Below are positions 39,486 through 63,171 of a stretch of 64,000 nucleotides of DNA, piece by piece. Source of the stretch: Litorivicinus sp. (GTDB lineage Bacteria; Pseudomonadota; Gammaproteobacteria; Pseudomonadales; Litorivicinaceae); the NCBI GenBank assembly GCA_028339155.1, contig JAOLBK010000001.1, positions 186,001 through 250,000 of the forward strand, read 5' to 3'. The notes beneath the pieces were generated by a model, which was given only the letters and a program-made list of their open reading frames with translations, did no database searches and was not told the DNA's origin. The stretch's first letter is position 1. Every line of letters begins with the position of its first letter. A program made the position numbers and the translations under genes.

Positions 39486-42400
39486 CTAGCTAAGGATGGG
39501 TGATAACCAGCGTGCATTCTCCTCAGTGGTCTCTCTTCTTAATTGACTGTAGCTTGTGAGCTGGTCTTGGCCAATGGTCCCAAGTGTGAAATAGCGAGCA
39601 TCAGGATGTGCAAAATAGAATCCGCTAACGGATGCGGTAGGCCACATCGCTAAACTTTCTGTCAGTGAGATTCCTGTCGTTGCCTCTACATCCAAGAGTT
39701 CCCAAAGTGTTCGTTTTTCGCGGTGATCTGGGCAGGCTGGATATCCTGGCGCTGGTCGAATCCCTCGATATTTTTCACGAATTAAATCATCGTTTGACAG
39801 GGTTTCATCTTGAGCATAGCCCCAAAATTCGGTGCGGACGCGTTGATGTAGATGCTCCGCAAAACTTTCAGCAAATCGGTCGGCCAGTGCTTTTAATAAA
39901 ATTGCCTGATAGTCGTCATGAGCGTCTTCAAAGGCTTTAATATGGGAGTCAATGCCGTGGCCGGTAGTGACCGCGAAGGCTCCAATGTAGTCGATTTGCC
40001 CCGACTCCTTGGGCGCCACGAAATCAGAGAGACATAGTTGAGGCTTGCCATCGGGCATGGGTCGTTGTTGCCTGAGCCAATGAGTTTTCGCGAGAATTTG
40101 GTTGGGGTCGTTGGGGTTCAGAATGACGATGGTGTTGCCCTCAGAGTACGCTGGGAAGCAACCGATCACTGCATTTGCACGAAGCCATTTTTCTTCAATA
40201 AGCGTCTTCAGCATAGCCTGAGCATCATTAAATAGATTGCGGGCTTCTGACCCTTTTCTAGGGTCATTTAATATGTCCGGAAACTTCCCTGAAAATTCCC
40301 AGGCATTAAAAAATGGCATCCAGTCGATAGCTGGCACTAAGGCATCTAATGGATAATCCACTAATGCATGCCGGCCAAGAAGCTTTGGAGTTAAAATGGT
40401 ATTTGAATCAAACCTAAGCTTTGCTTGTCTTTGGTTTGCATTAGTAATTGATAGTAATTTTTTCGGTGCGCGGCCCGCGTAGGCTTTGCGCTTAGCATGA
40501 TTGTCTCGATCAATTTCAGCATAAAAGTCAACTCTGGAGTCGCCCAAGAGTTTTGATGCCACGCCAACAGCTCTACTAGCATCTTTGACGTAAAGCACAG
40601 GTCCTGAGTATGCCGGATCAATTTTTACTGATGTATGGGCTGGTGAAGTCGTGGCCCCTCCGATTAATAGTGGACATGTAAAGCCTTGGCGCTCCATTTC
40701 TGAAGCCACGTTGACCATTTCATCCAATGACGGCGTGATTAGTCCGGATAGGCCAATAATGTCCGCATTATGCTCTTTAGCGGCATCCAGAATCGTTTGT
40801 GCTGGCACCATTACCCCGAGGTCAATGACCTTGAAGTTATTGCATTGCAAAACCACACCAACAATATTTTTACCGATGTCGTGAACGTCACCTTTGACGG
40901 TAGCCATGATAATCACACCATGTTCTTGACTGGTATCGCCTGAGGCTGCTTTTTCGGCTTCTATGTAAGGAGTCAAATGGGCAACCGCTTTTTTCATGAC
41001 CCGCGCTGATTTTACTACTTGCGGCAGGAACATTTTGCCCGCACCGAAAAGATCTCCGACTGTATTCATTCCATCCATGAGTGGCCCCTCAATAACTCGT
41101 AAGGGCCTGTCTGCCTGCAGCCGAGCTTCTTCAGTATCTTCCACAACGTAGCTGTCGATGCCTTTAACCAAAGCATAGGAAAGTCGTTCCTGGCAGGACC
41201 CGTTTCTCCATTCTGCAACAGTATCTTCAACAACTTCTTTGCCGAGATTGAATCTTGGAGCTGCGTCCACAAGGTTTTCAGTTGCATCGCCGTTGCGATT
41301 CAGTATCACATCTTCAACAAGAATTTTGAGTTCTGGATCAATGTCTTCGTAGATAGCTAACTGTCCAGCGTTGACAATACCCATGGAGAGGCCGGCTCGA
41401 ATCGCATGGAATAAAAAGGCCGAATGCATCGCTTCTCTGACCGTATCATTGCCTCGAAAAGAAAAAGAAACATTGGAGATACCTCCTGAGATATAGCTAT
41501 GAACACATTGTGCAGTGATATCGCTACAAGCACCTATAAAATCTTGAGCATAATTGTTGTGCTCCTCGATTCCTGTGGCGACTGCAAAGACGTTGGGATC
41601 AAAGATAATGTCTTCGGGGGGGAAACTGACTACTTCGGTCAGTAACTTATATGATTTTTTACAGATTTCAAGTTTGCGAGCACGAGTATCAGCTTGGCCA
41701 GCCTCATCAAAAGCCATGACGACTACTGCAAATCCATATTGACGGATTTTACGAGCTTGTTCTAAAAAGTTTGCTTCACCTTCTTTTAAGGAAATCGAGT
41801 TAATAATTCCCTTACCCTGGACGCATTGCATGCCCGCTTCGAGAATGTCCCATTTTGATGAGTCGATCATCACAGGCACTCGAGAAATGTCTGGTTCTGA
41901 GGCAATTAAGTTCAACATCGTTACCATGGCGCCTTTGGAGTCCAGCATGCCTTCGTCCATATTGATGTCGATGATTTGCGCCCCATTTTCGACTTGTTGG
42001 CGCGCAACAGTTAGAGCTTCATCAAATTGAGAATTCAAAATCAAACGTTTGAACATAGCGGAGCCGGTAACATTTGTTCGTTCACCAATATTCACAAACC
42101 CAGTAGTTTCGTCTGCCACAAAAGGTTCAAGCCCACTTAGTCTCATGCGTGGTACGAGCGTTGGGATCGCCCGTGGTGTTAATTCAGCCACTTTGTTTGC
42201 GATTAGGCGAATGTGCTCGGGTGTTGTCCCACAGCAGCCACCTATAATGTTGACCAGACCACTTTCTGCATATTCAGCAACGATCAATGCCATCTCCTCG
42301 GCCTCTAAATCGTATTCACCAAATTGATTGGGAAGTCCAGCGTTGGGATGCGCTGATACATAAGTATCAGCTGCCTTTGATAAATCCGATAAAAAAGGCC

Positions 42401-43154
42401 GCAATTCTTTGGGCCCTAGCGCACAGTTTAGGCCAACGGTGAGAGGTTTTGCATGACGAACTGAATGCCAAAATGCCTCCGTCGTTTGACCCGAAAGAGT
42501 TCGGCCTGACGCATCTGTAATGGTTCCTGAAATCATTATTCGAATTTGAATGCCCGTTTCACGGGCAATATCATCGATGGCAAAAAGCGCTGCTTTTGCA
42601 TTTAAAGTGTCAAAAATTGTTTCTACTAAAATGAGATCTGCGCCACCTTCCAACAAGGCTCGCGTAGCATCGGCATATGTCTCAACTAGTTGAGCGTAAG
42701 TAATATTTCGGGCGCCAGGATCATTTACCTCGGGACTGATCGAACAAGTTCGGGTGGTCGGGCCAAGGACGCCGGCGACAAGGATTGGGCGTTCAAAAGT
42801 ATCAGCTACATTTCGTGCTAGTTTTGCGGCTTCTCGGTTGAGCTCGGCTACCAGGTTCCCCATTGAGTAGTCGCCCATAGACGGTGAGTTTGAATTAAAT
42901 GTATTGGTTTCAATAATGGTGGCACCGGCTTCGATATAGTCTCGGTGAATTGATGCAATGAATTTTGGTTGGGTGAGAGTTAGGAGGTCGTTGTTCCCTT
43001 TGAGATCTTGGTTAAAATCTTTGAAACGCTCACCGCGATAGTCGCTTTCCCCAAGACCTGCGCCTTGGATCATTGTGCCCATTCCACCGTCGAGAATGAG
43101 AATTTGGCTCTTTAGGCTGGCTTCGAGCCATTTAATTCTCTTTTCTCTAGTCAT
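39486..43154 (-). CDS. metH: Cobalamin-dependent methionine synthase MetH
   Basis: Four-module enzyme of 1222 residues. The homocysteine domain has Zn ligands in GLNCALG (about residue 241) and [10 protein letters not shown] (about 306). The pterin domain starts at [19 protein letters not shown], and the B12 domain has [12 protein letters not shown] (about 756), with His as the lower ligand of cobalamin. The C-terminal AdoMet-binding activation domain has [12 protein letters not shown]. It transfers methyl from methyl-THF to homocysteine. ATG 43154 overlaps the metF stop by 4 nt. Confidence 0.98.
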
Positions 43155-44005
43155 TGGGAACCTCTAACACCGAGTGCGTGACAGACGGCGAATGATAAGT
43201 CCGCACGGTTTAGGGTATAAAAATGAAAATCTTCCACGCCTTCACGTCCCAGCGCCTCTGCTTGATCTACAGAAACGTGTGCTGCGATTAATTGGCGGGT
43301 AACCGGATCCTCGTCGAGCCCTTCAAATAAGCGAGCAAGTGAGCTGGGGATGTTTGTGCCGCAAGCGCTTGCAAATCTGAGTAAGGATTTGTAATTGGTG
43401 ACAGGTAGGACTCCCGGGATTATATCCACTTCGATCCCAGCTTTCGCAACTTGATCGCGAAAGCGAAGAAAAATATCGTTATCGAAAAAGAACTGGGTAA
43501 TGGCGCGTCGACTTCCTTTATCGATCTTGCGCCGTAAATTATCAAGATCGGCGTCAGAAGATAATGCCTGTGGATGGGTTTCAGGATATGCGGCTACAAA
43601 AAGTTCAAATGGGTGGAGTTTCATTAGGCCCTCGACTAGGTCAGATGCATACGCATAACCATCGGGATGGGGGCTGTAACCGGCGTCGGAACCACCTTCG
43701 GGATCGCCGCGGAGTGCGACGATTTGACGTACCCCCATGTTCCAATAACTATCGGCGATGGCATCAATTTCATCGCGCGGAGCTCCGACGCAAGTCAAGT
43801 GAGGGACCGGAAGAAGAGCTGTTTTGTTCAATAATTTTTGGATAACTTGATGAGTCCGTTCCCTTGTTGATCCGTCGGCACCGTAGGTAACGGACACGAA
43901 TTCAGGTTGTAAAGGTGCGAGCCGATCCACGGTGTTCCATAGGCTTCGTTCCGCCTCCAGGGACTTAGGCGGGAAAAATTCAAACGAGACACGCGGTGGA
44001 CTCAT
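43151..44005 (-). CDS. metF: Methylenetetrahydrofolate reductase MetF
   Basis: FAD enzyme of 284 residues that makes the methyl-THF used by Met[18 protein letters not shown] at the start contains the catalytic Glu region. [26 protein letters not shown] (about 98) and [21 protein letters not shown] (about 170) are typical. It is coupled by 4-nt overlaps to the regulator upstream and metH downstream, so one mRNA makes regulator, methyl-THF producer and consumer. Confidence 0.96.
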
Positions 44006-44946
44006 GTTGCATCCTTAGCTTTTTCTGAGACTAACAGGCTGATATCGAGCGAATCGCCCGGCAGTATGTTGGTATTTGTGATTTTGAGTCCGGCACTCTC
44101 AATCCATTGTTGAATATCTGATAGCTCGATACCCACTGATGGCGGCGTTTTAGCCGTTTTAGAGGCCGTGAATGCGACTACTAATAAACGACCCCCATAT
44201 TTTAATACGCGAGCAGTTTCTTTGATTAAGGCATCAGGATTAGTCGCGAAATAGAGTACCTGATCAATGGTGATGGTGTCGAAATACCTGGCAGCGAAGC
44301 GCATTTGATACATATCTTCCTGTCTTACCGTTAGGTGGGCTAAGCCAGATTCTGCGAGAACACTTCGCGCAACCGTTACCATTTTTTTTGAGAGATCAAT
44401 GCCTACTCCACTGGTGGCCAATGGGCCTACGATTTTTAGCATCCGTCCTGTTCCTGTTGCAACATCTAAAAAATGCCCAACCGTTTTTTCAGCGAGAGCG
44501 TCTTGGACGGCACTTTCAAAACGCGCTGTGTCTCCATGGTATTCGTGTAGACGCAACCAATCAGGAAGCTCGGTTTCGATAAATGTCTCAGATAGCGTGG
44601 CGCGCGCAGCTTGGAGCTCGATAAGCCGACTTTGATCTAATTGTATTATGGTCTCGTTTTTTTCGATTTGGTTTATCAGCCCTGAGACTAACAACTGATA
44701 GTGTTCCTCTTGCACAACGCGATAAAAAACCCAATGCTGTTCTCTGAATCGCTCTAAAATGCCGGCATCTTGTAGTAGTTTAAGATGACGCGAAACACGA
44801 GGCTGAGACTGCCCCACAATGCGCATTAATTCAGAGACGGTGAGCTCGCCTTGGGCGCAAAGACGAACCAAACGAAATCGTGTGGGCTCGGAAATTGCTT
44901 TTAAAGCGTCTATGTAATTGTCGTATGATGTCCACATTCCGAACAT
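44002..44946 (-). CDS. ArsR-family regulator fused to a SAM-dependent methyltransferase domain (SahR-like)
   Basis: Protein of 314 residues. An ArsR winged helix spans about residues 8-95 (ISEPTRFRLVRLCAQGELTV, SQPRVSRHLKLLQDAGIL). A class I methyltransferase domain has FLDVATGTGRMLKIVGPLA (about 158) and DTITIDQVLYFATNPD (about 222). ArsR regulators linked to methionine-cycle genes are known as SahR and sense S-adenosylhomocysteine, and the fused domain would be a natural SAM/SAH pocket. The regulator leads metF-metH with ATGA coupling, and a palindrome abuts its start. The start codon (44946 or 44937) is uncertain. Confidence 0.85.
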   Translation of the reverse strand: MFGMWTSYDNYIDALKAISEPTRFRLVRLCAQGELTVSELMRIVGQSQPRVSRHLKLLQDAGILERFREQHWVFYRVVQEEHYQLLVSGLINQIEKNETIIQLDQSRLIELQAARATLSETFIETELPDWLRLHEYHGDTARFESAVQDALAEKTVGHFLDVATGTGRMLKIVGPLATSGVGIDLSKKMVTVARSVLAESGLAHLTVRQEDMYQMRFAARYFDTITIDQVLYFATNPDALIKETARVLKYGGRLLVVAFTASKTAKTPPSVGIELSDIQQWIESAGLKITNTNILPGDSLDISLLVSEKAKDAT

Positions 44947-44949
44947 AAT

Positions 44950-44971
44950 AATATAAAGATATCCTTATATT
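44950..44971. promoter_or_regulatory. 22-bp palindromic operator between the ArsR-methyltransferase gene and the acyl-CoA hydrolase gene
   Basis: The half-sites AATATAA and TTATATT are perfect inverted repeats around AGATATCC, with only one mismatched pair over the full 22 bp (centre GATATC). It lies in the 38-bp gap between two divergent starts, so a dimeric ArsR protein bound here could block both. I infer that the adjacent SahR-like protein is the ligand. The sequence itself shows only the symmetry. Confidence 0.75.
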
Positions 44972-44984
44972 CAATGGAGAAAGC

Positions 44985-46112
44985 ATGACAGAGCCTTCTA
45001 TTCAATTTTCGACTCGTCCTCTTCGGGGTATCGATGGCCTTTTAGCCGTCGCCACTTTAAATCGTCCTGAAGCACTTAATGCTCTTGATCATAGGATGAT
45101 ATTTGAATTGCTCGAGATTATTAAAAGAGTGGAATCAGATCATTCGATCTTTGGTTTATGGATCGAATCATCGATTGAAAAAGCATTTTGTGCGGGCGGT
45201 GATGTTCGAGATGTCACTAATTTTGGACAAAAAGGTGGTGTAACCGATCTGAGCCATGCGTCAGATTACCTTGCTGATGAATATTTGTTGGATCTCTGGC
45301 TTCGGAAAATGCAAAAGCCAGTATTTGCTTGGGGTGATGGTTATCTCATGGGCGGTGGCATGGGTATTTTTCAGGGCGTAGATGTCCGATTTGTGACAGA
45401 ACATTCGAAGCTCGCGATGCCAGAGGTACGGATCGGATTTGTGCCAGATTGCGGTGGTAGTTGGTTTTTGAACCGTGCAACTAACGGCTTGGGGATATGT
45501 TTATCTATGACTGGGGCGACGGTATCAGCGAGTGATGCATGCTGGTTGCAGTTGGCAGATTGGTTATTGCCTCGGCAAGAGAAGGATGCGGTCCTTGACA
45601 CTATTTGTGGGCTTAATTTTTCAAGTAAATACGCGGCTCTATCAGATCTTGGTTCTAAGCTTTCGGAGGTTACAAGTCGGTCGCCTAGTCAAGGTCCATG
45701 GGAGGCAGTTGGGTCTCAATTGGTCAACCGCATACGTCATCAGACCCCAGAAGGAGTGTGGAGAGCTATAGAATTCTGGTATCAAGCCATTCCCGAACTG
45801 TTCGTTGGCCTCGAGCAGGCTAGTCCGGGCGCCTCATTGGTGTCGGGCCATCAGTTTCAGCGCAGCCGATTTCTGAGTCTTTACGAGTGCGTTATTCAAG
45901 AGCATGATCTAGCGATGCATATGCTCGGCGATGGTGAATGGTGCGAGGGTGTTCGAGCACTCCTCGTCGACAAAGATAAAAATCCTGATTGGCGATTCGA
46001 TAGCGTCGAGCAGGTCGAGTCTGACTGGATTCATGCCATGCTTGCCCCCATGAATTGGGAGGGTGTTCATCCTTTGAGAAAAAAGCTGGCTGAGCATGGT
46101 ATTTATTCTTAG
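44985..46112 (+). CDS. Enoyl-CoA hydratase/isomerase family protein, probably 3-hydroxyisobutyryl-CoA hydrolase
   Basis: Crotonase-fold protein of 375 residues, which is long for a hydratase but normal for HIBYL-CoA hydrolase. LNRPEALNALDHRM, KAFCAGGDVRDV (about residue 65), GYLMGGGMGIFQG (about 119) and MPEVRIGFVPDCGGSWFL (about 146) are the active-site segments. The C-terminal EGVRALLVDKDKNPDW is characteristic of the hydrolase. GGAGA precedes the start. The next gene encodes a 3-hydroxyisobutyrate-dehydrogenase-type enzyme, so a valine degradation pair is likely. Confidence 0.85.
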   Translation: MTEPSIQFSTRPLRGIDGLLAVATLNRPEALNALDHRMIFELLEIIKRVESDHSIFGLWIESSIEKAFCAGGDVRDVTNFGQKGGVTDLSHASDYLADEYLLDLWLRKMQKPVFAWGDGYLMGGGMGIFQGVDVRFVTEHSKLAMPEVRIGFVPDCGGSWFLNRATNGLGICLSMTGATVSASDACWLQLADWLLPRQEKDAVLDTICGLNFSSKYAALSDLGSKLSEVTSRSPSQGPWEAVGSQLVNRIRHQTPEGVWRAIEFWYQAIPELFVGLEQASPGASLVSGHQFQRSRFLSLYECVIQEHDLAMHMLGDGEWCEGVRALLVDKDKNPDWRFDSVEQVESDWIHAMLAPMNWEGVHPLRKKLAEHGIYS

Positions 46113-46140: not shown

Positions 46141-47025
46141 ATGAAGGTTGCATTTTTAGGTTTGGGTGTCATGGGATACCCAATGGCGGGGCATTTAGCC
46201 AAGGCCGGTTATAATGTTACTGTTTATAACAGAAGCGAAGCCAAGGCGAAAAAGTGGGTAAATGAATTTGGTGGGAATTCTGCTGCAACGCCTCGTGAGG
46301 CCTCTGTTGGACAAGATATCGTCTTTGCCTGTGTCGGCAATGACGATGACTTGAGGAGTATTGTATTGGGCTCCGATGGTGCTTTCAGCGGCATGAGCGA
46401 AGGCTCGCTATTTATTGACCACACCACGGCGAGTGCCGAAGTGGCCCGCGAACTTGATCAAAAAGCCAAGACTTTGTTATTGGGCTTTATGGATGCCCCG
46501 GTTTCAGGTGGACAGCAGGGAGCGGAAAACGGAGCTCTTACGGTTATGGTTGGGGGCGATCAAGCTCACTTCGCTTTGGCGGCCCCGGTAATAGATGTAT
46601 TTGCTCGCGCTTGTTCATTAATGGGCCCAGTTGGATCTGGCCAGCTTACAAAAATGGTGAACCAAATTTGCATTGCTGGTTTGGTTGAGGGCTTGTCCGA
46701 AGGTTTGTCCTTTGCGAGGGCTGCTGGACTGGACGCACACAAAGTTGTTGATGTCATTAGTAAAGGTGCTGCGCAATCGTGGCAGATGGAAAATCGTTAC
46801 AAGACTATGCTGGCTGACGAGTTTGAGCATGGGTTTGCAGTCGATTGGATGCGTAAAGATCTATCGATCTGTCTGGCTGAGGCGCGCAAAAATGGTGCTG
46901 CATTGCCCGTAACAGCAATGGTTGATCAACTGTATAGCGAAGTGCAATCCATGGGCGGTGCTCGCTGGGATACTTCTGGCTTGTTTGCTCGACTGGAAAT
47001 TATGCGTAAGAGTAGTGGCGGCTGA
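46141..47025 (+). CDS. mmsB: 3-hydroxyisobutyrate dehydrogenase family oxidoreductase
   Basis: NAD(P)-dependent beta-hydroxyacid dehydrogenase of 294 residues. The dinucleotide loop FLGLGVMGYPMAGHLAKAGY is at residues 5-24, DAPVSGGQQGA near 119, and the catalytic Lys in GQLTKMVNQI near 172. The family also includes tartronate semialdehyde reductase and GLYR1-type enzymes. Pairing with the acyl-CoA hydrolase argues for 3-hydroxyisobutyrate. AAGGCGGGG lies upstream of the start. The 3' end overlaps recX by 11 bp. Confidence 0.8.
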   Translation: MKVAFLGLGVMGYPMAGHLAKAGYNVTVYNRSEAKAKKWVNEFGGNSAATPREASVGQDIVFACVGNDDDLRSIVLGSDGAFSGMSEGSLFIDHTTASAEVARELDQKAKTLLLGFMDAPVSGGQQGAENGALTVMVGGDQAHFALAAPVIDVFARACSLMGPVGSGQLTKMVNQICIAGLVEGLSEGLSFARAAGLDAHKVVDVISKGAAQSWQMENRYKTMLADEFEHGFAVDWMRKDLSICLAEARKNGAALPVTAMVDQLYSEVQSMGGARWDTSGLFARLEIMRKSSGG

Positions 47026-47455
47026 TCCTAAAAATACATTGATTGAGTCACTGGTTCGCAGAGAACATTCTCGGGCCGAACTCGATCGAAAGCTTCGTAA
47101 CAAACATCCGGAGCTTTCGCTCATCGAGCGTTTATCTCTCTTGAATTGGCTCATTACTGAGCGTTTGCAATCCGATGAGCGATTTTCAGAAGCACTGGTT
47201 CGATCGCGACTCAATCGAGGGTGGGGTCTTAGGCGAATTGAGCTGGAATTGCAGACACACGGCATTGATAGTTCTAGGATCGATGACTGGTTGGGTTGTG
47301 ATGTTGCTTCTGAGCAGGACCGGGCGACCGAAGTGCTCAGGAAGTGGCTTCGAAGTAAAAAAGATCCAACTCGGGACAAGGCGCTGCGGTTTTTGGCGTC
47401 TAGGGGTTTTAGCTTTTCTGATGCAACTGAAGCAGTCGACTCAATTATGGGCTAG
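47015..47455 (+). CDS. recX: Regulatory protein RecX
   Basis: Modulator that caps RecA filaments. About 146 residues of three-helix repeats: LIESLVRREHSRAELDRKLRNK, then ERFSEALVRSRLNRGWGLRRIELELQTHGI, then KALRFLASRGFSFSDATEAVD. GTG 47015 is the likely start, overlapping mmsB. The frame stays open further upstream to 46922, but that stretch reads as out-of-frame mmsB sequence. TTG 47039 is another candidate. recX next to alaS is the E. coli order, but recA itself is about 20 kb upstream here. Confidence 0.85.
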   Translation: MAADPKNTLIESLVRREHSRAELDRKLRNKHPELSLIERLSLLNWLITERLQSDERFSEALVRSRLNRGWGLRRIELELQTHGIDSSRIDDWLGCDVASEQDRATEVLRKWLRSKKDPTRDKALRFLASRGFSFSDATEAVDSIMG

Positions 47456-47493
47456 GATTGTTTTTTTATAGAATGCTAGACACTTGACAGACC

Positions 47494-50091
47494 ATGAAAA
47501 GCGCTGAAATACGTTCACAATTTCTTGACCATTTCCGGGAGCATGGGCATACCATTGTTAGCTCCAGTTCATTGATTCCGGGAAATGACCCGACGCTTCT
47601 TTTTACCAACGCAGGGATGGTCCAGTTTAAGGATGTGTTTACGGGCGAAGAAAGCAGGCCATACAATCGCGCTACGACAGCACAGCGCTGCGTTCGTGCG
47701 GGAGGAAAGCACAACGATCTCGAAAATGTGGGTTATACGGCTAGGCACCATACATTTTTTGAAATGCTTGGAAATTTTAGTTTTGGTGACTATTTTAAAG
47801 AAATGGCTATCCGATTGGCCTGGGAGTTCTTAACGATACGTTTAGGGTTGCCGCCCGAGAAACTTTGGGTGACCGTCCATGATAGCGATCAAGAAGCAGA
47901 GGATATTTGGCTTCAGAAAATTGGCGTTGATCCTGCTCGACTCTCTCGGCTTGGTGATAAAGATAATTTTTGGTCTATGGGGGATACGGGTCCCTGCGGC
48001 CCTTGTAGTGAAATTTTTTACGATCATGGGCCTCACGTGCCCGGTGGTCCTCCAGGCTCAGATGGAGATGATTTAGATCGTTATATTGAAATATGGAATT
48101 TAGTATTTATGCAGTTTGAGCAGGCTGCAGATGGCACGCGGACACCTCTACCAAAGCCATCAGTAGATACTGGAATGGGTCTTGAACGAGTTGCTGCTGT
48201 AATGCAGGGTGCGCATTCAAACTATGAAATTGATTTGTTTCAGACCCTTCTCAAGGCCGCTGCAGAAGTTACTAAAACTGAAGATCTTGAGGCTAAGAGC
48301 CTAAGAGTGATTGCTGATCACATTCGAAGCTGTTCATTTCTGATTTGCGACGGTGTGCTTCCTGCCAATGAGGGCCGTGGGTATGTATTGCGAAGGATTA
48401 TTAGGCGTGCCATTCGGCATGGACATAAACTTGGATGTGACCACGTATTTTTTCACAAGTTAGTTCATGTGCTTGTTGCCGAGATGGGTGAGGCGTATCC
48501 GGAGCTCCGTGATGCGGAAGATAGAATTGTGGTTGCGTTAAAGCAAGAGGAGCTGCAGTTTGCAAAAACCCTCGATGCTGGCATCAAAGTGCTAGACGTA
48601 GCGATCGCTTCATTGGAAGGAAATACTCTTTCTGGTGGTTTGATTTTCAAGTTATATGACACGCATGGATTTCCGGTTGACTTGACTAACGATATCGCCC
48701 GAGAACGTGGTTTAAACCTTGATATCGAAGGGTTTGATCGAGCGATGTCGGAGCAGAAAGATAACTCACGGCAAGGCTCGAGTTTTGTAGTCGAGGGGCG
48801 AGTCCGGCTGGATTTAGATTGTGGTACTGAGTTTTTGGGTTACACGCATCTTGAGGCGAGTGCGGCAGTGGTTGCTCTTGTGAGAGATGGTAAGTCGGTG
48901 GATTTTTTGGCGGCTGGTGATCGAGGCATGATCGTGTTGAATCAGACCCCATTTTATGCAGAAAGTGGAGGCCAGCAGGGAGACTCTGGGGACTTAGTTT
49001 CTATTAGTGCTGCATTTAAAGTGGAGACGACTCAGAAGTCGGGACCGCATTTCTGTCATGAGGGTAGCCTTGAAACGGGCAATCTAAAGATTGGTGATAC
49101 GGTGTCAGCTCGAGTCGACGGGTTGCGACGAAATGCAATAGCGTTGAATCATTCGGCAACTCATTTGATGCATGCGGCATTGCGTGAAGTGCTGGGTGAG
49201 CACGTTATGCAAAAAGGGTCGCTAGTAACGCATGATCGAACTCGCTTTGATTTTTCGCACCCCGGGCCGGTTACGGATCTTGAGTTGAGTCGAATCGAGG
49301 ATGTAGTGAACGAAGAAATTCGTAAAAATTCACAAGTTTCCACTCAAATAATGGCAATAGATGAGGCCAAGAAAATTGGTGCTATAGCACTTTTTGGCGA
49401 AAAATATGATGCCGAGGTCCGCGTTCTTTCAATGGGTGATTTTTCAATAGAACTTTGCGGCGGAACTCATGTCGCTCAAACTGGCGATATTGGTCTTTTT
49501 AAAATCATCGGTGAGAGCGGCGTCGCTTCTGGCATTCGTCGGCTGGAAGCCGTCACTGGCCATCGAGCGATTACGCAGATTCGTGACCTTGAGCAAATAC
49601 TGCAACAAGCCTCCAGATTATTGAAAACTGGCACTGATTCAGTGAATGGGAAGATAGAGCAATTAAATGATCGCTTGAAGTTTGCTGAACGTGAAGTAGA
49701 TAGCTTGAAAATGAAATTGGCCACTCAGGCCGGTGGTGATTTACTCGATAATTTGATTGAAGTAGCCGGTGTGCAGTGTCTGGTGGCGACACTCGAAGGG
49801 CAGGATCCTAAAGTTTTAAGGGATACCATGGACCGCATCAAGGATCGCTTGGATCGGGGGGTGATTGTTTTGGCAACTGTTCGAGAAGATAAGGTTAATT
49901 TAGTCGCTGGGGTGACAGATAACTTGACTGGGCGCATGAGAGCAGGCGACCTTGTCGGCTTTGTAGCTCGCCAGGTCGGTGGCAAAGGTGGTGGTCGGGC
50001 AGATATGGCCCAGGCAGGTGGATCTGAGCCTGCATCATTGCCAGGAGCCCTGAAGTCAGTGCCAGGCTGGCTCGAAGAACAACTGAGTTAA
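47494..50091 (+). CDS. alaS: Alanyl-tRNA synthetase
   Basis: Class II synthetase of 865 residues. The aminoacylation core shows [19 protein letters not shown] and [15 protein letters not shown]. The editing domain has the zinc motif [16 protein letters not shown] (about residue 550) and [13 protein letters not shown] (about 655). The C-terminal DHHA1 domain ends with [14 protein letters not shown]. The start at 47494 lies 38 bp after recX, and lysC follows after 8 bp. The alaS-lysC order is also that of Pseudomonas. Confidence 0.98.
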
Positions 50092-62125: not shown

Positions 62126-62470
62126 TTATTGGGTCGCCAACTGACCCCAGTAGCTTGCATGTAGAACAACCATTCCAAGTGCCAAAGTGTCAATGGTCCG
62201 CTTGTATTTCAAAAATAGTGAGATGGCCACTACGGCAGCTATCCAGCGCGGATCAATGGCTACCATGCCAAATTCTTTAATCAAGCCAATTTCACCTTTG
62301 AAAATCCCCGGTACTACCAGTGCGCAGAGTACGGCCGGTGGTGCAAATTCAAGTGCATCCCTGAACCATTGAGGCAGTTGAATATACTTAGACCCTTCGA
62401 TAAACGATCCTTTCAAAATAAGAGTTACGAATGCAGCGCTTATAATCGTTAAGAAGAAAGTTTCATTCAT
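62126..62470 (-). CDS. azlD: AzlD family branched-chain amino acid export subunit
   Basis: Small membrane protein of 114 residues with about four helices (MNETFFLTIISAAFVTLILKG, APPAVLCALVVPGIF, DPRWIAAVVAISLFLKYK). It pairs with AzlC as a LIV-E-type exporter. ATG 62470 overlaps the azlC stop by 4 nt, so the longer frame to 62563 is not the start. The gene is convergent with ctaB, 26 bp apart. Confidence 0.9.
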   Translation of the reverse strand: MNETFFLTIISAAFVTLILKGSFIEGSKYIQLPQWFRDALEFAPPAVLCALVVPGIFKGEIGLIKEFGMVAIDPRWIAAVVAISLFLKYKRTIDTLALGMVVLHASYWGQLATQ

Positions 62471-63171
62471 GAATGAAACCGTTTGACTAAAATTCCCGAG
62501 ATGATTCCGGCTATACCACCACCAATGAGACCCAAGTTCATCGGAGCATCGAGAGCCAACCATGAGACGGTTGTGCCGACAACAGCGGCAACGCGGTGAG
62601 CTCCGGACTTCAGAGTTCCCAGTGCTAGAGCTAAAAATGTTAGGGGGATCATGAAGTCAAGGGACCAGTAAATGGGTACGATTTGGCCCATTAAGGCTCC
62701 GGTAAGAGTGCAAGCCTGCCACAAAATCCATAGTAAAATGGTCCCGCCTGCATAATAGGCGATTCGTTCTGATAACTGCCAACTGTGTAGGGGATAGTCT
62801 CGCTGACACACTGCATAGATTTGGTCAGTAAGTCCGTAGCTGGCCAATAGTCTAGTGGCTCTTGGTGCGGCTGAGAGATAAGGCGCCATAGATGCGCTAT
62901 AAAGTACATAGCGTAGATTGATGGCCATCACAGTCACGAGAATTACCCAAATGGACGATTCTTGCCCGAGTAGCTGGTATGCGGCAAGTTGTGAGGCGCC
63001 TGCGAACATGAATAATGATCCAAGAGATGCATCGATCCAGCTGTATCCTAGGGTTATTGGTGTTAAGCCGGCAATCAATCCGAACGGAATTATACCGGGA
63101 AGAAACGGTGTTATCGCGTGCATACCGAGAAGTAAGCATCTACGGAGGTTAACTGGTGGGTGATCATGCAT
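62467..63171 (-). CDS. azlC: AzlC family branched-chain amino acid export permease
   Basis: Large subunit of 234 residues. FLPGIIPFGLIAGL near the N-terminus, SLFMFAGASQLAAYQLLGQ (about 53), INLRYVLYSASMAPYLS (about 84) and TDQIYAVC (about 115) are the AzlC motifs. ATG 63171 is the probable start. A TTG at 63177 would add two residues. Export of leucine, isoleucine and valine analogues is known for the family, and the valine-type catabolic genes at 45-47 kb are not linked to it. Confidence 0.92.
   Translation of the reverse strand: MHDHPPVNLRRCLLLGMHAITPFLPGIIPFGLIAGLTPITLGYSWIDASLGSLFMFAGASQLAAYQLLGQESSIWVILVTVMAINLRYVLYSASMAPYLSAAPRATRLLASYGLTDQIYAVCQRDYPLHSWQLSERIAYYAGGTILLWILWQACTLTGALMGQIVPIYWSLDFMIPLTFLALALGTLKSGAHRVAAVVGTTVSWLALDAPMNLGLIGGGIAGIISGILVKRFHS

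Follow-up and report, generated by a model that had tools for sequence, protein, structure and literature searches.

SahR is a regulator in which an ArsR-type helix-turn-helix is fused to a domain with a methyltransferase fold. SAH and SAM-SAH riboswitches sense metabolites of the methionine and methyl-donor cycle that SahR regulates. The methyltransferase-fold domain of the SahR studied here is expected to bind S-adenosylhomocysteine (SAH); SAH binding by SahR is attributed to Novichkov et al. According to the accessible text of Leyn et al. 2014 (PMC4239095), SahR belongs to the ArsR family and has sahR, ahcY, metK, metH and metF as its core targets. The same text describes different SahR motifs for Alpha- and Gammaproteobacteria, and an ATC-10nt-GAT core that is common to gammaproteobacterial SahR and SamR. 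SahR of Alphaproteobacteria, for example that of Sinorhizobium, is covered by Leyn et al. 2014, and Ensifer aridi sahR by PMC8877191.

We analysed a window of 64,000 nucleotides, i.e. the whole stretch of DNA under study, from an assembly of 1.88 Mb (features in Table 1). Its genus is called Litoricola here, after record titles; it belongs to the gammaproteobacterial OM252 clade and its relatives include HIMB30 and LSUCC0096. The OM252 clade, 'Ca. Halomarinus', is described in the accessible part of its report as cosmopolitan in marine waters, with these two as its cultured strains (PMC8269220). Drawn genomes are called alphaproteobacterial on the basis of their kinship ('same phylum') together with named alphaproteobacterial records, and the label SamR-like was assigned from a metH neighbour and kinship. 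'Halieaceae' denotes one protein group, with record titles that read mostly Halieaceae or Luminiphilus and in some cases only Alteromonadaceae, Gammaproteobacteria or Proteobacteria.

Table 1. Features of the sahR locus, in window coordinates
Feature	Position	Strand	Basis
sahR, ArsR winged-helix and class I methyltransferase fusion	44002..44946	-	ORF list, Pfam
ArsR-type helix-turn-helix of SahR, residues 21-65	44752..44886	-	Pfam, alignment
SahR class I methyltransferase domain, residues 160-255	44182..44469	-	Pfam, alignment
Operator palindrome AATATAAAGATATCCTTATATT, alpha-type SahR site	44950..44971	.	recurrence, conservation
Putative sahR promoter, operator inside spacer	44945..44974	-	promoter scan
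metF, methylenetetrahydrofolate reductase, alphaproteobacterial/enterobacterial type	43151..44005	-	Pfam, tree
metH, cobalamin-dependent methionine synthase, outside the alphaproteobacterial metH clade	39486..43154	-	Pfam, tree
Divergent ECH_2 / 3-hydroxyisobutyryl-CoA hydrolase-like gene, operator region in common with sahR	44985..46112	+	
3-hydroxyisobutyrate dehydrogenase-like gene, next after the hydrolase-like gene	46141..47025	+	

Judged by its protein, recognition helix and operator, the SahR of the window appears to be of the alphaproteobacterial type and not of the type that its own order has. Like alphaproteobacterial SahR, it combines ArsR and methyltransferase domains, its operon and operators cover the core targets sahR, metF, metH, metK and ahcY, and a 20-bp palindromic operator stands at its own gene, a likeness in site presence only. 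The operator ATAAAGATATCTTTAT was present upstream of sahR with at most one mismatch in all five named alphaproteobacterial records read, and metF followed sahR in the three of them with gene tables. Unlike in those systems, the regulator is found in a gammaproteobacterium, the metK and ahcY genes are gamma-type and share an operon next to tkt, metH is not alpha-type, and a hydrolase gene is the divergent partner. S. meliloti and R. leguminosarum also differed in that metH was not behind metF; in Sphingomonas, metH was behind metF, in two parts.

The gamma-type SahR of Pseudomonadales shares the domain architecture and the SAM-cycle targets, but differs in sequence (about 27% identity), in its recognition helix (around Q[PS]xxSHHLKVL), in its operator (ATATCAAAA-TTTTGATAT) and in its position as the gene before metK. 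SamR of Xanthomonadales is likewise an ArsR-methyltransferase fusion and adjoins metH. The SamR-like proteins differed from the window protein in sequence (30–34% identity) and in the helix (AQPRVSTHLAKL), and their loci contained the alpha-type operator in 0/5 and ATC-N10-GAT in 4/5 cases. The locus also differs from SAH and SAM-SAH riboswitches: an Rfam scan of the window and of the metK-ahcY locus (L003) returned no family at gathering score, and a riboswitch in place of the operator was rejected.

Gene arrangement and promoter geometry

An earlier note on this DNA had proposed a SahR-like fusion regulator heading metF and metH. The fusion was borne out by Pfam matches to HTH_5 (2e-13) and Methyltransf_11 (6.8e-18), both over the curated cut-offs, and the SahR reading was supported by a second operator at metK-ahcY; the ends of the open reading frames confirmed a 4-nt overlap at both the sahR/metF and the metF/metH junction. 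The methyltransferase domain contained a glycine-rich motif (LDVATGTGR) and an acidic motif (GIDLS), which we take to be the SAM/SAH-contacting motifs. MTHFR was detected in the metF product and a full-length set of MetH domains in the metH product. On the plus strand, the hydrolase-like gene (262.9 bits vs a curated cut-off of 274) is followed by the 3-hydroxyisobutyrate dehydrogenase-like gene, recX, alaS and lysC.

The near-perfect palindrome that the note had placed between the regulator and the divergent hydrolase gene was present, with 10 of 11 pairs matching. The gap of 38 bp given for it is probably too short. Among aligned relatives an ATG-TGG at 44937 was conserved and the first ATG (44946) was not, and the true sahR start is probably the ATG at 44937. 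Given the divergent ATG at 44985, the gap is then probably 47 bp.

The putative sahR promoter consists of a −35 box TTGAAT (44974–44969), an 18-nt spacer and a −10 box TATTAT (44950–44945), and the scan at sahR returned two promoter-like sites vs 0.5 expected. Since the start codon lies 7 nt past the −10 box, the sahR transcript may be leaderless. In Litoricola, the operator filled the 18-nt spacer in 19/19 distinct stretches, obtained from 21 loci (L005 was cut at a contig end and L022 had no separate line); the boxes were TTGAA[C/T] (once TTGGAC) and TATTAT (once TATGAT, once TATGCT). At Litoricola metK, the operator filled a 16-nt spacer with its edge touching the −10 box (TTGACA...TA[C/T]AAT, 12/12 stretches), and at Halieaceae metK it likewise filled the 16-nt spacer, here between TTGACA and TATGAT or TATAGT (7/7 stretches). 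Because an AT-rich operator can mimic a −10 box, the stronger part of this evidence is the −35 box of metK, a perfect TTGACA in every stretch (12 Litoricola, 7 Halieaceae). With an operator between −35 and −10, an occupied site should block the polymerase, from which we infer repression. As a general rule, the spacer geometry was contradicted at Halieaceae sahR, where the operator overlapped or abutted the start codon (11 loci) and no sigma-70-like promoter spanning it was found in 11/11 loci (best 6–8 of 12 matches).

Relationships of the SahR protein

The SahR protein was searched against 398 genomes drawn from the phylum, one per species. The best matches outside its own genome were all 'same phylum', the full-length ones at 134–235 bits; no match within the same class scored above 103.6 bits and none within the same order above 71.6 bits, and other Pseudomonadales SahR were distant. 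Proteins of Sinorhizobium, Rhizobium, Methylobacterium, Shinella, Sphingomonas and Novosphingobium matched at 31–37% identity, with 34% across 292 aa for S. meliloti. These alphaproteobacterial genera made up 11 of the 13 matching records in a plasmid collection; the other two were Leptospira (27%). Those two records, Leptospira interrogans NZ_CP043881.1 and NZ_CP020413.2, encode a relative that covers 89% of SahR.

In a 69-row tree (69/70 rows; L165 was dropped as too gappy), Litoricola, a sister genus and Halieaceae formed one group (100/100) that was joined to alphaproteobacterial SahR (99/96), with gamma-type SahR and the SamR-like proteins elsewhere in the tree. Clustering of the window SahR with SamR-like proteins was seen neither in the tree nor in the recognition helix. 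The helix of the window protein, GQSQPRVSRHLKLL, was also found in many alphaproteobacterial SahR; Halieaceae SahR carried G[YH]SQPRTSRHLKIL. In a 53-row quick tree (48 of the 70 rows plus five named proteins, with 22 long-branch or near-duplicate rows removed), the five named alphaproteobacterial proteins fell among the rows called alphaproteobacterial (clade support 96), and four formed small groups with individual rows (support 97–99). Of 200 bootstrap trees of the 69-row set, 0% united alphaproteobacterial SahR in a single clade, and the AU test on 48 of the 70 rows did not reject such a clade (p 0.53). Nesting of Litoricola SahR inside alphaproteobacterial SahR was thus not upheld in the reduced set, and Litoricola SahR may instead be its sister. 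Nesting of Halieaceae SahR in Litoricola, seen in the 69-row tree (95/90), was not upheld either (AU test, p 0.32). These p values would be compatible with several candidate donors and with one or several transfers.

The fused domain could be an active methyltransferase, which would make SahR a sensor-enzyme and not only a ligand-binding protein. Motif I and other core residues were invariant in nine aligned proteins, and in Pfam and NCBIfam the domain was near UbiE and arsenite methyltransferases, at scores short of the curated cut-offs set for the NCBIfam enzyme models among the matches listed. Equal conservation is expected of an SAH-binding pocket, and the operator and regulon are those of SahR; we consider enzymatic activity very improbable. 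An AlphaFold model of SahR (mean pLDDT 47.8) was too poor for pocket inspection, and each of 25 matches among solved structures covered one domain only.

Recurrence and distribution of the operator

The palindromicity of the operator is by itself insignificant: the window contained two near-perfect 22-mer palindromes, where 50 dinucleotide-shuffled versions averaged 0.54. It is recurrence that gives significance. A 20-mer search with at most three mismatches matched one other place genome-wide, 35 nt upstream of metK; ahcY and an rsmE-family gene come after metK, and tkt is the divergent gene. The genome scan suggested in the earlier note near metK and ahcY thereby yielded one further operator. 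The reversed-pattern control gave no matches in this genome at the same settings. A looser 16-mer search (at most one mismatch) gave three places in this genome, the third outside the window. The other near-perfect 22-bp palindrome of the window is at 62459–62480 (AGTTTCATTCATGAATGAAACC).

Across the genus, a degenerate 20-mer (at most two mismatches) detected the site in 20/22 genomes, and the reversed-pattern control gave no matches in all 22. Of the two genomes lacking it, G006 ends at a contig edge (L005) and G017 had no sahR match at 78% completeness. In 32 same-order genomes, real matches occurred in 7 and control matches in 12, both at background level. Over 20 aligned genus loci, the 22 bp of the palindrome were 98% conserved vs 76–88% in the flanks. 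A chance palindrome was rejected: the shuffles alone were unremarkable, but the site recurs before metK-ahcY and across the genus. Two genus genomes had a third site, the perfect palindrome ACATAAAGATATCTTTATGT (L189:4716-4735 in G004 and L190:4184-4203 in G005); these were rejected as further operator targets, being beside small ORFs that have no Pfam match and whose neighbours differ.

The type of operator followed the type of recognition helix (alpha, gamma-type, SamR-like). With at most two mismatches of 16, the alpha-type operator, a motif measured from these loci and not taken from Leyn et al. 2014, was present upstream of sahR in 27/29 alphaproteobacterial loci (drawn by protein alone, with motif-drawn loci excluded), 7/7 Litoricola and 7/7 Halieaceae loci; it was missing at 2/29 alphaproteobacterial loci and was found before sahR in 0/9 gamma-type, 0/5 SamR-like and 0/3 sister-genus loci. 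The gamma operator ATATCAAAA-TTTTGATAT (ATC-N10-GAT) was present with at most one mismatch in 6/9 and with at most four in 9/9 gamma-type loci, vs 0/29 and 6/29 alphaproteobacterial loci; at Litoricola sahR it was not found with up to four mismatches (0/7). This split agrees with the alpha and gamma motifs in the accessible text of Leyn et al. 2014 (PMC4239095). Halieaceae carriers had the operator at their own sahR in 11/11 genomes and at metK-ahcY in 7/11, with none found there in 4/11; two of these genomes had additional matching places (G450:C21 and G454:C89). The gene divergent to sahR in one Halieaceae locus (L082) is a glutathione S-transferase by Pfam, and most other loci have similar proteins at this place.

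Sister-genus sahR had no intact operator in front (0/3), and elsewhere there were mostly degenerate versions. In these loci (L195, L196, L197), alaS is divergent to sahR and metH lies behind it, with metF too in L196 and L197. The palindrome or a degenerate version stands between sahR and metH instead of before sahR (e.g. L195:489-508).

All 20 genus loci with upstream sequence kept the hydrolase gene beside the operator, with its ATG 13 nt from the palindrome in 19 and 14 nt in one (L011); L023 had a second hydrolase ATG at 10 nt. This constancy could suggest that the palindrome chiefly controls the divergent hydrolase and dehydrogenase genes, in acyl-CoA or valine-type catabolism, with the methionine link secondary. 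That reading is extremely unlikely: metK-ahcY carries the same operator without these genes, and the pair was not beside sahR in the sister genus, Halieaceae or alphaproteobacterial loci read, the hydrolase/sahR arrangement being confined to this genus in the sample. It is plausible that the operator also controls the hydrolase gene. Given the 13 nt between hydrolase ATG and palindrome, a promoter placed within the 47-bp gap would necessarily overlap the operator, which makes joint control mechanically likely. A weak promoter-like match was found on the hydrolase strand at 44900–44929, outside the gap, and for transcription starting at that point the operator would be an obstacle further downstream. 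The earlier note had also suggested that read-through might extend this control to recX-alaS-lysC. The gene order from the hydrolase gene to lysC was kept in loci long enough to show it, and a scan of 46900–47620 gave no promoter-like sites and two terminator-like stems (0.7 expected).

Methionine-cycle genes and the proposed origin of the regulon

The three best outside matches of metF were alphaproteobacterial (365–391 bits), and many of the top alphaproteobacterial matches directly adjoin an alphaproteobacterial sahR. The gene scored 339 bits against metF of a group labelled here, presumptively, as Enterobacteria-type, vs 207 bits against same-order metF. In the metF tree, Litoricolaceae (98/92) stood in a clade (90/90) with alphaproteobacterial and Enterobacteria-type metF, far from same-order metF. 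That the type is common to Enterobacteria-type metF, in score and in clade, counts against the origin proposed below. In six alphaproteobacterial loci, picked among the top sahR or metF matches, the gene order was sahR-metF-metH, with a metH match of only 31–33% in two. Both metK and ahcY were gamma-type by score and tree, and Halieaceae metK grouped apart from Litoricola metK in the tree. The highest scores of metH were with the same order, and it fell outside the alphaproteobacterial metH clade (100). Its nearest neighbours in a quick tree were two same-phylum rows (94), which leaves more doubt about its origin than about the origins of metK and ahcY.

In 13 same-order loci, selected for having gamma-type SahR, the native sahR was directly before metK (13/13). 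Beyond it, tkt was adjacent or within about 2.3 kb in 8/13 loci; the other five showed no tkt in the 4–6 kb viewed. In 4/4 Litoricolaceae loci and in 12 Litoricola metK loci, tkt and metK were neighbours and sahR was absent between them. A gamma-type SahR query of 12 Litoricolaceae (of 25) and 11 Halieaceae genomes found no second SahR: it returned only the alpha-type protein (61–75 bits) and short UbiE-like matches, with positive controls at 247–310 bits (n=3).

Vertical descent would offer another explanation for these patterns, with alpha-type SahR and its operator ancestral in Proteobacteria, kept in Litoricolaceae and lost or replaced in other gammaproteobacteria. It is compatible with the AU test, which did not reject an alphaproteobacterial SahR clade with Litoricola outside, and the sampling of one genome per species was a draw only. 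We regard it as quite unlikely, since no other same-order or same-class match among the 398 genomes exceeded 103.6 bits, another regulator stood before metK in all 13 same-order loci fetched, and the alphaproteobacterial affinity is shared by metF and not by metK and ahcY. The reading that we consider very likely, based on sequence comparison, is that SahR acts as a repressor on an alpha-type operator, that an ancestor of Litoricolaceae gained the sahR-metF pair, that the native sahR and metF were lost, and that metK-ahcY and metH were rewired.

Under this proposal, a SahR dimer would sit on ATATAAAGATATCTTTATAT, which separates −35 from −10 at both sahR-metF-metH and metK-ahcY, and the bound protein would block RNA polymerase. 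A build-up of SAH would release SahR, upon which SAH hydrolysis, homocysteine remethylation and SAM synthesis would rise together. SAM, the suggested effector of SamR, could also be the effector here: the targets include metK, and the fold might bind either ligand. SAM is an unlikely effector, as ahcY lies behind the second operator, the protein tree sets the window SahR apart from SamR-like proteins, and SamR, unlike SahR, is described in the accessible text of Leyn et al. 2014 (PMC4239095) without SAM-cycle genes except metK. For the SahR of the window, we infer DNA binding, SAH as the ligand, and the transfer and its direction. The alpha-type sahR-metF pair would have entered the ancestor of Litoricolaceae, where the native Pseudomonadales sahR before metK and the native metF would have disappeared; the new regulator would have taken over the metK-ahcY promoter and the metH gene already resident there.

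Two genus genomes retained an intact sahR and operator with remnants behind them (tblastn). In AG-905-C17, these are followed by a metF head, a metH tail and pdxB (L071:6936-7387 / L007), and in the other genome by only a metF head and pdxB (L076:6933-7244 / L019). In both, metF and metH look deleted, which may leave the cells reliant on methionine from outside or on a different synthase.

Among the titles listed in searches of open-licence literature, none was of a paper on cross-class transfer of SahR. The 2014 survey uses the word 'horizontal' once, for the lack of horizontal transfers of MetJ and its sites (PMC4239095), and the word is absent from the accessible part of a 2016 survey (PMC5343134). 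The regulator itself is of a known kind; SahR here is ordinary in mechanism and unusual in origin. It is likely that regulator and DNA code were replaced jointly in Litoricolaceae (OM252), with a foreign operator in the resident metK-ahcY promoter, a repeat of the metK wiring in Halieaceae and an OM252 operator that also serves the divergent hydrolase gene. The system would then be a well-marked natural swap of a regulator and its binding code across classes, in which the former and present protein types, their respective operators and the slot left empty by the native gene can all be seen in the sequence, and it may let one ask how a new operator code gets installed in a resident promoter.
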